64,000 bases of DNA from positions 1-64,000 of the forward strand of contig CALWJA010000032.1 in NCBI GenBank assembly GCA_944380875.1, given 5' to 3'. Both the position numbers and the translations under genes were made by a program. Below the pieces are notes generated by a model, which was given only the letters and a program-made list of their open reading frames with translations, did no database searches and was not told where the DNA came from. This DNA comes from an uncultured Clostridia bacterium. GTDB lineage: Bacteria; Bacillota; Clostridia; Oscillospirales; Acutalibacteraceae. Shown one piece after another: positions 5,195 through 61,127 of the stretch (the stretch's first letter is position 1; each line of letters starts with the position of its first letter).

Positions 5195-5548
5195 AAGAAA
5201 ACGGCTCGCCCCGAGCTTTCCGCTCAGGACGAACCGCAATAGTCCGTGGTACCACCTGGTTTCGGATAATCCCCGCAACTTTCGGGAATACTTCCGCACT
5301 CAACCGGCTGAAGCTTTTTCGGCACAAATGCGCCAAAAAATTCTAAGCCGCTTCCCTGTAACGGGGGAATCCGTTGAAGCCTACTAAGCTCCGCCTTTTC
5401 GGGCGGAAACCGTTCTCCATTCAAAGCTCGTGGGCCAGTTCCGCGCAGTCGTCACAAAGGCTTACACCAACCGCCTTTTCTCTTCGCTTCCGGCAAACGC
5501 ATACTATTCCCCGTCATAGCTTTCTGCTATTCTCTTATGTTAGTCTTA
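5195..5548 (-). promoter_or_regulatory. T-box leader of ilvBNC
   Basis: On the minus strand the leader contains the T-box core AGGTGGTACCACGG (about 5240-5255), which pairs with uncharged tRNA ends. It is followed by a G+C-rich stem (CGGTTCGTCCTGAGC with its near complement) and TTTTCTTT, the competing terminator at about 5197-5240. Upstream it has the CCGTTAC element of the stem IIA/B region (about 5360) and the GGTGTAAGCC-type distal stem I segment (about 5460-5475). I could not place the specifier codon with confidence, so leucine, isoleucine or valine is inferred from the operon only. Confidence 0.93.
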
Positions 5549-57884: not shown

Positions 57885-59291
57885 TTATTCCTCAATGCTC
57901 CATTTTACGCCCTGTGGGGTATCCTTCAGGACAATATGCCGGGCTTTCAGTTCGTCGCGAATAGCGTCGGCAGTGGCCCAGTCCTTATTTTTCCGAGCCT
58001 CAGCACGCTTTTCAATAAGAGCTTCTATTTCCGCATCCAGGGAATCTTCCTTTTTCTGATACAGAAGGCCCAGAACATCGGCCAGTTCCGTATACAGCTT
58101 CAGGGATTTCTCCAAAAAATCACGGCTTGGCTGGGCTTCAGCCGTCATAGCGGAGTTGATATCTCTGGCCAGATCGAAGAGGCAGGAGAGAGCGTCCGCC
58201 GTGTTGAGATCGTCTTCCATGGCTTCGATGAAGCGGTCTCTGTGGGAAAGGAAACGATTAAAGGCTTCCTCTTCCCCTTCCTTCATCCCCTCCTGACCGT
58301 GGGCAAGAAGGAATTCCATATTTTCTTTGCAGTTATAGAGGCGGTCAAGCCCTGCTTTGCACTGCTCGATAACCTCGGCACTGTAATTGATAGGAGTACG
58401 GTAATGGGAGGCCACCATCAAATAGCGGATAGGCTCATATCCGTATTTTTCCGCCACATCCCGGACGGTGAAGAAATTATTGAGGCTTTTGCTCATCTTC
58501 CGGTTATCTACGTTGATGTAACCGTTATGCATCCAGTAACGGGCAAAGGGAACCCCATTGCAGCACTCGCTCTGGGCGATCTCATTTTCATGGTGGGGGA
58601 ATATCAGATCCTGGCCGCCGCAGTGAATATCAATGGTCTTTCCCAAATACCGGCGGGCCATTGCGGAACACTCGATATGCCAACCGGGACGTCCGTCGCT
58701 CCAGGGGGAAGGCCAGCTGGGTTCGCCAGGCTTGGCTGCCTTCCAGAGGGCAAAATCCATGGCGTCTTCCTTGATCTCGCCGGTAGCAATTCGGGCTCCG
58801 GCCTGCAGCTCCTCCAAAGGCTGATGGGAAAGTTTTCCGTATTCCGCATCCTTCAGAGTACGGAAATACACATCCCCGTTTTCAGCAGCATATGCGTACC
58901 CTTTTTCCACCAAGGTGGAAATAATGCTGATGATCTCATCTATATTCTCCGTAGCCTTGGGATGGATGGTAGCGGGCTTTACATTTAGCCCCTGGGCATC
59001 CTTTTTATATTCCTCAATAAAGCGGCGGGAAACTGTGAGATAATCGCTTCCCTCTTCATTGGCTTTGCGGATGATCTTATCGTCAATATCCGTAAAGTTC
59101 TGCACAAATTTAACCTTCATGCCCCGATATTCCATATAGCGGCGCAAAACGTCGAACACGCAAATGGGGCGGGCATTTCCAATATGGATGTAATTGTATA
59201 CAGTGGGGCCGCAAGCGTAAATCAGGGGTTCATTCTCGTGCAGGGGGACAAATTCTTCCTTCTGCCTTGTGAGGGTATTATAGATCTTCAT
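57885..59291 (-). CDS. cysS: Cysteinyl-tRNA synthetase
   Basis: This 468-residue class I synthetase has the zinc Cys and HIGH motif in YACGPTVYNYIHIGNARP, the second zinc region with Cys and HH in DIHCGGQDLIFPHHENEIAQSE, and KMSKS in NRKMSKSLNNFF. ATG 59291 has GGAGA 8 bases upstream. The frame is open in the same phase up to an ATG at 59498, so the last repeat-unit peptide frame runs into cysS without a stop, but the N-terminal family boundary is at 59291. It is downstream of cysE. Confidence 0.96.
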   Translation of the reverse strand: MKIYNTLTRQKEEFVPLHENEPLIYACGPTVYNYIHIGNARPICVFDVLRRYMEYRGMKVKFVQNFTDIDDKIIRKANEEGSDYLTVSRRFIEEYKKDAQGLNVKPATIHPKATENIDEIISIISTLVEKGYAYAAENGDVYFRTLKDAEYGKLSHQPLEELQAGARIATGEIKEDAMDFALWKAAKPGEPSWPSPWSDGRPGWHIECSAMARRYLGKTIDIHCGGQDLIFPHHENEIAQSECCNGVPFARYWMHNGYINVDNRKMSKSLNNFFTVRDVAEKYGYEPIRYLMVASHYRTPINYSAEVIEQCKAGLDRLYNCKENMEFLLAHGQEGMKEGEEEAFNRFLSHRDRFIEAMEDDLNTADALSCLFDLARDINSAMTAEAQPSRDFLEKSLKLYTELADVLGLLYQKKEDSLDAEIEALIEKRAEARKNKDWATADAIRDELKARHIVLKDTPQGVKWSIEE

Positions 59292-59434
59292 GCTGCTGGT
59301 CTCCTTTTTCCAGATTTTATTTAATTCTTTTTTCCTTACTGTATCCGGCCTGTCTTTGCTCTCTAAGGCAGACACGCCATTTCGCTTCTTTGAGCGTTGT
59401 GGATTGTATTCCCAAAACTCTATTTTGCAATAAA

Positions 59435-59839
59435 GGAATCCTTTCCGGATTTCCTCTGGTATTCGATTTGCATAGGGAACATGGATTCCTGCGCACATTA
59501 CCTCTTAAGCAGCCATAGCTGCTAAATCCTTGCCTGCGAATGCTGAAGGAATCCCTTCCGGATTTCCTTTGGCATTCGACTTGCACAGGAGCATAGGGTT
59601 CCTGCGCACATTACCTCTTAAGCAGCCATAGCTGCTAAATCCTTGCCTGCGAATGCTGAAGGAATCCTTTCCGGATTTCCTTTGGCATTCGACTTGCGCA
59701 GGAACATAGGGTTCCTGCGCACATTACCTCTTAAGCAGCCATAGCTGCTAAATCCTTGCCTGCGAATGCTGAAGGAATCCTTTCTGGATTTCCTTTGGCA
59801 TTCGACTTGCGCAGGAACATAGGGTTCCTGCGCACATTA
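59435..59839. repeat. 113-bp tandem repeat array between cysE and cysS
   Basis: Units start at 59435, 59548, 59661 and 59774, exactly 113 bp apart; the fourth is partial (66 bases) and the first is diverged in its first half. Each intact unit holds three hairpins: CGAATGC with GCATTCG; GCGCAGGAAC with GTTCCTGCGC; AGCAGC with GCTGCT. On the minus strand each carries a 29-codon frame starting MCAGTLCSC and ending HSQARI; copies 2 and 3 follow AAGAGG. TATAAT overlaps the copy-4 start codon. Confidence 0.95.
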
Positions 59840-59950
59840 TACCACAAAAGAAGAGAAACAAAACACAAATTTTGCCTTCTTCTTTTTCTGAACACTTTTT
59901 GGAAATGAAATATTCCAAAAAAGCCCCTACGCTTCCTTTTTTAGAAAGCA

Positions 59951-60628
59951 TTAGGCATCGGGATGATTTTCGCCCGCGCCTTGCCGGCAGGATGCCGGAT
60001 CCTGCCCCAACACCTTTTGAAGCCTTTCCAGGTCCATATGCAGGCGGCAGAACTCCTGAGCCACAGGGTCGCCAACATGGATCTGATCCAGATTGACGGA
60101 CGCCGGTTTTTCCCCGTTCAGCCGCACAATTCTGGCAGGGACACCCACCGCAGTGGCATTGGGCGGCACTTCATCCAGCACGACAGCGCCCGCAGCCACC
60201 CGGGCATTATCGCCCACCGTAAAAGGCCCAAGCACCTTGGCGCCAGCGCCCACCATCACGTTATTTCCCAATGTGGGATGGCGCTTTCCCTGGTCTTTTC
60301 CCGTTCCTCCCAGGGTTACGCCCTGATATAGCGTACAGTTATCGCCGATCTCGGTAGTTTCCCCAATGACTACGCCCATCCCGTGGTCGATAAATAAGCC
60401 CTTTCCGATGGTGGCTCCGGGATGAATCTCAATACCGGTTTTATGACGGGCCCTCTGGCTGATCCAGCGGGCGATAAACGGGTGACCATGGGTATGAAAC
60501 CAGTGCGCACGGCGATAGGAGCGGACCGCCTTAAACCCGGAATAGAGAAAATATACCTCCAAGCGGCTTCTGGCCGCCGGGTCCCGGTCCATGAAAGAAT
60601 CCAGTTCTTCCTTCAACTTTTGAAACAT
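59951..60628 (-). CDS. cysE: Serine O-acetyltransferase
   Basis: This 225-residue enzyme makes O-acetylserine for cysteine synthesis. The N-terminal helical region (LDSFMDRDPAARSRLEVYFLY) is followed by left-handed beta-helix repeats with the catalytic His in LFIDHGMGVVIGETTEIGDN and GVTLGGTGKDQGKRHPTLG. The ATG at 60628 follows AGGTG by about 6 bases; ATG 60643 is an alternative. The T-box leader upstream and cysS downstream predict cysteine-responsive expression. The 250 bases between the T-box and the start contain no clear gene. Confidence 0.95.
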   Translation of the reverse strand: MFQKLKEELDSFMDRDPAARSRLEVYFLYSGFKAVRSYRRAHWFHTHGHPFIARWISQRARHKTGIEIHPGATIGKGLFIDHGMGVVIGETTEIGDNCTLYQGVTLGGTGKDQGKRHPTLGNNVMVGAGAKVLGPFTVGDNARVAAGAVVLDEVPPNATAVGVPARIVRLNGEKPASVNLDQIHVGDPVAQEFCRLHMDLERLQKVLGQDPASCRQGAGENHPDA

Positions 60629-60879
60629 AACTTTCACCTGCATCCTTTTTCCTTGCCTCCGCTTTTGAGGCCGAGGCGGGTTTTCGGGCATATACGGAAT
60701 ATTCCCGGATTTGCGGACTGCTCCCCCGGGAGAAACCGTAAAGAGAACTTGCAAACGCCCCCAAAAAATGCCTTTCCGCAATTTCTGCCCAGGGCGGTAT
60801 CTTCCCGCAACACGGTATATTCTCACTATATGCCGCAGCTTTCAGTTCGGAAACCTCTTTGAGGAAAAGAACGGAAACA

Positions 60880-61127
60880 AAAACCGCCCCCGTCCTCAGA
60901 AAGGACGGAGGCGGTATACTTCTATCCCGCGGTTCCACTCCGTATTTTTACTCTTTACGGCCTTTAACGGTGCCAGCCGGACGGGCATTTGACCCGCCTG
61001 CTCCCGGGCGCATTTCACCAGTCATTCCGCGAAAAGCGCTTCCAGCCTATGGCGCTTTCTCTCTGTCGAAGTCCGTTCCGGCTACTTCTCCCGTTCTCAG
61101 CATTTCAGCAGAAAACCTGCAGATGTT
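60880..61127 (-). promoter_or_regulatory. T-box leader of cysE-cysS
   Basis: On the minus strand the leader has GAGTGGAACCGCGG (60940-60926), the T-box core, followed by a terminator (ACCGCCTCCGTCC with GGACGGGGGCGGT, then TTTTTGTTT, about 60915-60876). Upstream is a long stem I with AGAGAGAAAGCGCC and GGCTGGAAGCGC. The specifier codon was not placed with confidence; cysteine is inferred from the operon. Confidence 0.93.

Follow-up and report, generated by a model that had tools for sequence, protein, structure and literature searches.

A tandem array between cysE and cysS of an uncultured Clostridia bacterium, probably the local amplification of a dispersed hairpin repeat associated with promoter −10 boxes

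The intergenic gap between cysE and cysS in a stretch of 64,000 nucleotides from an uncultured Clostridia bacterium, which we call the window, holds a tandem repeat in which short Cys-rich reading frames can be found. What is this array, and does it serve the Cys operon in which it lies? A preliminary description of the same DNA offered two answers, a Cys-codon leader peptide that stalls ribosomes ahead of cysS, or a dispersed palindromic repeat family that amplified here. The features of the locus are collected in Table 1. The period is exactly 113 bp, and overlapping 181-nt copies share 92% identity. The four units reported between the two genes are thus right in period and position, but the fourth is not full-length, and the covariance model describes an array of three full units and one truncated. 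The outer end lies a few bases past 59839 and reaches an extended −10 box. The proposed setting in a Cys T-box operon is borne out by a covariance-model match upstream of cysE, with a score slightly below the Rfam gathering score of 93 and a specifier for Cys. The window has a second T-box leader at 5222–5526 on the minus strand, which at 93.3 bits is above the gathering score.

Table 1. Features of the cysE–cysS locus; positions are those of the window.
Feature	Positions	Strand	Remarks
Array, four head-to-tail units, last truncated	59433..59843	−	in the cysE–cysS gap
Extended −10 box TGGTATAAT	59836..59844	−	outer (5′) array end; hairpin 1 begins 2 nt later; motif also fronts intact single copies
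Unit 1, 115 nt including TATAAT, three hairpins	59729..59843	−	covariance model, 124.9 bits
Hairpin 1 of unit 1, TGCGCAGGAA/TTCCTGCGCA	59808..59834	−	
Hairpin 2 of unit 1, CGAATGC-CA-AAGGAAATCC / GGATTCCTT-CA-GCATTCG	59763..59804	−	
Hairpin 3 of unit 1, AGCAGC/GCTGCT	59734..59749	−	
Unit 2, 113 nt, −10 reduced to GGTAATG	59616..59728	−	covariance model, 114.3 bits
Unit 3, 113 nt	59503..59615	−	covariance model, 108.7 bits
Unit 4, degenerate, truncated within 3′ arm of hairpin 2	59433..59502	−	homology stops at ~59433
cysS, downstream gene	57885..59291	−	own start codon 59289–59291 behind AGGAG
cysE, upstream gene	59951..60643	−	name from the sequence and the preliminary description
T-box leader, UGC (Cys) specifier, upstream of cysE	60904..61107	−	83.9 bits, E 3e-18

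The two answers differ in where else the unit should occur. With the unit as a DNA query, its own genome (G000) contains eight places at E < 1e-8, two of which are the window array. The others lie before ksgA/rsmA (three units, contig C55), parA (three units, C21), rlmD (C14), a YgjP-type metallopeptidase gene (C50), a gene without a family match (C76) and an RluA-family pseudouridine synthase gene (C58). A covariance model based on 13 units locates 14 in this genome, at seven well-preserved places including the window, plus a decayed one on C19, and in a congener, G001, it finds the unit at about 12 places, several of them decayed. The third congener, G002, gives a single weak match. Among 200 genomes of the family the unit is convincing only in the two species G000 and G001, and across the GTDB collection the pattern of its 5′ end matches contigs of G001 only. 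Neighbouring genes in G000 and G001 include ksgA, parA, rlmD, trmB, an RluA-type gene and bgaA, and are mostly unrelated to Cys; the unit is not confined to genes of one amino acid. Names for rlmD, trmB, trmL, rlmL, holB and the RluA-type, UDG family 4, YgjP, BglII, YfhO and GH42 genes come from Pfam/NCBIfam, and those of ksgA, parA, cysS, cysE, rpoD and the G077 genes are our own reading of the sequence. A small interspersed repeat is defined by numerous short, non-coding copies spread over intergenic sites that are unrelated, and this is what the genome and its congener show; the scatter supports the dispersed family. An origin from a phage or plasmid was considered and dropped, as phage and plasmid records hold no similar DNA and no viral contig carries the pattern. 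A known RNA family was likewise dropped, the best Rfam scores for the unit being at chance level.

Almost every locus is placed 5′ of a gene and oriented towards it; one copy between convergent genes is a clear exception. Between co-directional genes the element always points the same way as the genes, the decayed C19 copy excepted, and between divergent genes its orientation carries little weight. Genes for RNA modification and translation are frequent among the neighbors (rsmA, rlmD, the RluA family, trmB, trmL, rlmL and cysS, with TlyA- and RlmB-like genes in G077, a genome of another genus); this holds for loci L089, L091, L094, L096, L105, L107, L109 and the window, also L188 and L193, against a rough expectation of less than one among about 20 loci, and is a post hoc observation. 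At another locus, L097 on C31 of G001, a BglII-type restriction endonuclease gene stands immediately 3′ of a two-unit copy.

What the copies have in common at their 5′ end is a promoter element. Intact single copies and the outermost units of arrays start TGGTATAAT|GTGC, which is the extended −10 consensus, the one exception being a G001 copy on C13 that lies between convergent genes and has GGTATGTGC. Inner units have lost the box in various ways: GGTAATG in the window and on C21, GGCTATG and GACTATG on C55, GGTAAGTG on C63 of G001 and GGTGGTG on C31 of G001. The ksgA promoter is shared by G002, which lacks the element there (ggtattcccgcattttctgTGGTATAATaaaag versus ggtattccaggattttctaTGGTATAATGTGCGC); the 30-odd bases preceding TGGTATAAT do not differ between G000 and G001 and can still be recognized in G002. 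No intact element stands behind TGGTATAAT, GGTATACT or TTATACT at the orthologues parA (G002), UDG (G000), trmB (G000 and G002), rlmD (G001), ygjP (G001) and trmL (G000), some of which could conceal very old remnants. In the G001 copy L099, ATGGTATAAT flanks both sides, a candidate target-site duplication, and another G001 copy (C1:45230) precedes an older, decayed unit that retained its own box. The three species yield no clean pair of empty and filled sites at base resolution because their intergenic DNA is too diverged, and the site of a copy at a G001 response-regulator gene had no match in G000 or G002. In 400-kb samples, hairpins directly follow any extended −10 box in 2 of 112 cases in G077, 1 of 166 in G001 and 0 of 103 in G002; the elements are therefore few, and promoters of this type are not generally followed by hairpins.

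The fold of a unit consists of three hairpins: TGC..GCA, CGAAT..ATTCG (interrupted by a CA/CA internal loop) and GCAGC..GCTGC. Its z-scores are −5.6 to −6.3 as RNA and −8.0 as DNA. The stems covary between loci and species. Double changes occur at 14 of 30 pairs and fill 42 cells, compared with 14.1 in shuffles, none of 500 of which was as high, and slid controls drop to 0–4 pairs. The feet of hairpins 1 and 2 and the linkers AGT and CAGGCGAGG largely retain their sequence. Hairpin 2 has GCC in G000 and in degenerate G001 copies (the parA, UDG and holB loci), and CTC in intact G001 copies, a shift that looks like a succession of mobile-element subfamilies under structural constraint. About half of the 5′ arm of hairpin 1 comes after the −10 box but before the start site expected from it; a promoter in front would therefore not transcribe that half, yet the pairs there covary. 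Hairpin 1 of intact units has eight A-C and three G-T mismatches, small counts in which A-C is not the rarer, unlike in an RNA stem of this strand; hairpin 1 alone was used because many G-T cells of hairpin 2 come from one loop-closing column. Because the covarying half precedes the start site and the mismatches do not favor G-T over A-C, we infer that the structural constraint acts on DNA, for example on single-stranded DNA that folds in the course of transfer.

The same observations bear on whether the host has domesticated the unit as a cis-acting 5′-leader RNA, whose hairpins at the start of the mRNA would control its stability or its expression, RNA-modification genes being one example. 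Such a leader would have a covarying fold, would sit directly behind a promoter and read into the gene, as the unit does, and the many rRNA and tRNA modification genes downstream are in keeping with it. That G000 and G001 have elements in matching positions at cysS, ksgA and parA could also mean functional long-term retention, and this is a point that counts against a mobile repeat; however, the G001 copies at the cysS and parA positions are decayed, and G002 is without the element altogether. The genes are otherwise unrelated, and neither the covarying part of hairpin 1 that the front promoter leaves untranscribed nor its A-C mismatches are expected of a leader. We therefore regard this explanation as unlikely, though it keeps some real weight. 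An array of small RNA genes with one promoter each is far less plausible, for although TGGTATAAT is followed by a stable fold and the units stand in tandem, the internal units have lost their −10 boxes in several ways, hairpin 3 has no terminator-like T tract behind it and Rfam offers no match.

The leader peptide fares worst. Units 1–3 do contain the 29-residue frames with three Cys codons each that were reported for the intact units of this Cys operon. The AAGAGG noted ahead of copies 2 and 3 is present, and in unit 4 as well, but only 2 nt separate it from the ATG. In the last unit the frame does continue in phase into cysS (ORF 57885–59498), but cysS has its own start codon behind AGGAG. 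That three of four differences between copies are synonymous is a correct count and weak evidence (P = 0.04–0.11 under random change). The frame that begins ATGTGC.. reads MCAGTLCSCASRMPKEI.. in the window array, MCAGNHVSCAGRMPKEI.. at ksgA, MCKENFVFLASRMPKEI.. at parA and MCAETLFPRKSNLKTNP.. in G001, where it is a different frame after hairpin 1. It is shifted in all G001 units, which have a single Cys there, and at the G001 cysE–cysS position it shrinks to MGRK and a stop codon, so the regulatory codons are not conserved at the orthologous locus. Paired units of the ksgA and parA arrays differ by several nonsynonymous changes, the only constant Cys is owed to the foot of hairpin 1, a TGC, and the ATG of unit 1 overlaps with the final two bases of TATAAT. 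With the unit also at non-Cys genes, its frame shifted between species and the operon already equipped with a Cys T-box, control of cysS by ribosome stalling has almost nothing left in its favor, and on these comparisons we consider the leader peptide refuted and the MCAGTLCSC frame a by-product of the repeat.

A dispersed repeat that lies behind −10 boxes has parallels outside the genus. In G077 a weak match to the model pointed to a unit of different sequence with about 20 copies, most of them immediately downstream of a −10 box (TGGTAAAAT, TGATATACT, TGATATAAT, TGGTATACT, TGGTATAAT and others). These copies have compensated hairpin-1 stems, and a second −10 box often lies behind the element. 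Within a copy, the box variant at one end matches that at the other, as a target-site duplication would make it: 5 of 11 pairs, which were picked by eye, are identical over 11 bases, and the mismatches add up to 20, where permutation gives 29.1 (P 6e-4; for identity P is 1.5e-5). One element-free promoter was found among congeners of G077, in G195 at the gene of locus L180 (TATGATAGAAT); the other sites were unalignable. Neither this arrangement in another genus, nor the covarying three-hairpin fold, nor the −10 box in front of intact copies was part of the preliminary description. This second family of hairpin repeats flanked by −10 boxes (L130–L149 and L180–L195) is unrelated to that of the window, and a further type of module, GGAAGAATCC..GGATTCTTC..GGAACCGGTGTA, is nested inside it or replaces it. 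G223, a congener of G077, carries a third unit, ATGGTACAAT + GACCACGGCCCAACG.., in about 40 copies (L270–L299); the unit, again directly after −10 boxes, is not found in the sisters of G223 and is joined to other modules at ATGGTACAAT. Most of its copies share the box TACAAT, and for this reason the box is probably carried along by the element there. The copies of this third family start ATGGTACAATGACCACGGCC and are joined in tandem and, at −10 junctions, also to a module GCAGGAAATC..GATTTCCTGC.

Bacterial small hairpin repeats are usually described as scattered. REP and REPIN sequences, associated with RAYT (Y1) transposases, are dispersed palindromes kept by their structure; the present repeat differs in having three different hairpins per unit, in its tie to −10 boxes and in a genome without a Y1 transposase. 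Y1 transposase (PF01797) is absent from G000 and G002 and present once in G001, in draft assemblies that could miss it, and with none in G000 a Y1 partner was dropped. Terminal inverted repeats were not seen by eye in the aligned copies, so this is not a classical MITE. BOX of Streptococcus pneumoniae is a small interspersed hairpin repeat with a variable number of tandem modules, restricted to a few species, with incidental open frames and in one case a position between the T-boxes of a leader region (PMC3049150). By description we set the present repeat beside BOX, which it resembles in all of these respects, down to the T-box neighborhood. However, BOX has terminal inverted repeats and is over-represented between convergent genes (PMC3049150), and pneumococcal hairpin repeats favor the space behind genes, whereas the present repeat lies 5′ of genes and begins immediately behind a −10 box. 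In Neisseria, Correia repeat enclosed elements are small and mobile, can place a promoter at their ends and can alter neighboring expression (PMC2649163). That is the likeness; they differ in having inverted repeats, the −10 boxes here being direct repeats and the ksgA promoter existing in a species free of the element. T-boxes and amino-acid leader-peptide attenuators share the operon and the Cys codons with the array, but the T-box stands apart, about 1 kb upstream of the array, and the peptide frame is not conserved. The repeat belongs to the broad kind of small interspersed repeats, working like BOX, RUP and Correia elements, with no family found that fits it. What deserves further attention is its placement at −10 boxes, together with the parallel in another genus.

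The best reading of these results is a small non-coding repeat of the BOX, RUP or Correia kind, probably mobile and non-autonomous, that inserts at promoter −10 boxes or travels with them, and we think it probable that the array in the window is a local tandem amplification of such a three-hairpin element. On insertion at the extended −10 box of a promoter, the outer copy of the box would remain in front and a fresh insertion would have a second copy behind. The target may be the melted or nearly melted promoter region, and duplication of the box would leave a promoter on both sides. Between cysE and cysS, ordinary tandem duplication would then have produced four units, whose internal −10 boxes were later lost. 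Such an element would need no host function. No transposase or recombinase was found linked to the elements in these draft assemblies.

We speculate more tentatively that a class of hairpin modules in this family of Clostridia homes to the extended −10 box of promoters and duplicates it, leaving the gene a promoter on either side of the insert, each species having a module family of its own and modules concatenating at −10 junctions; this is a possibility that we would not yet favor. Homing could possibly use the single-stranded DNA of the open complex. A search for repeats aimed at the −10 box found none in the literature covered, which proves little. A family placed exactly behind the −10 box, before housekeeping genes, with other sequences arranged alike in another genus, points to promoter targeting. 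If the duplicated −10 box is a real target-site duplication, it would give a handle on the movement of elements that have no known transposases, and odd structured leaders of gut Clostridia would be explained without regulation. Should the homing of hairpin modules prove true, it would be a strategy by which mobile elements target the promoter box itself.
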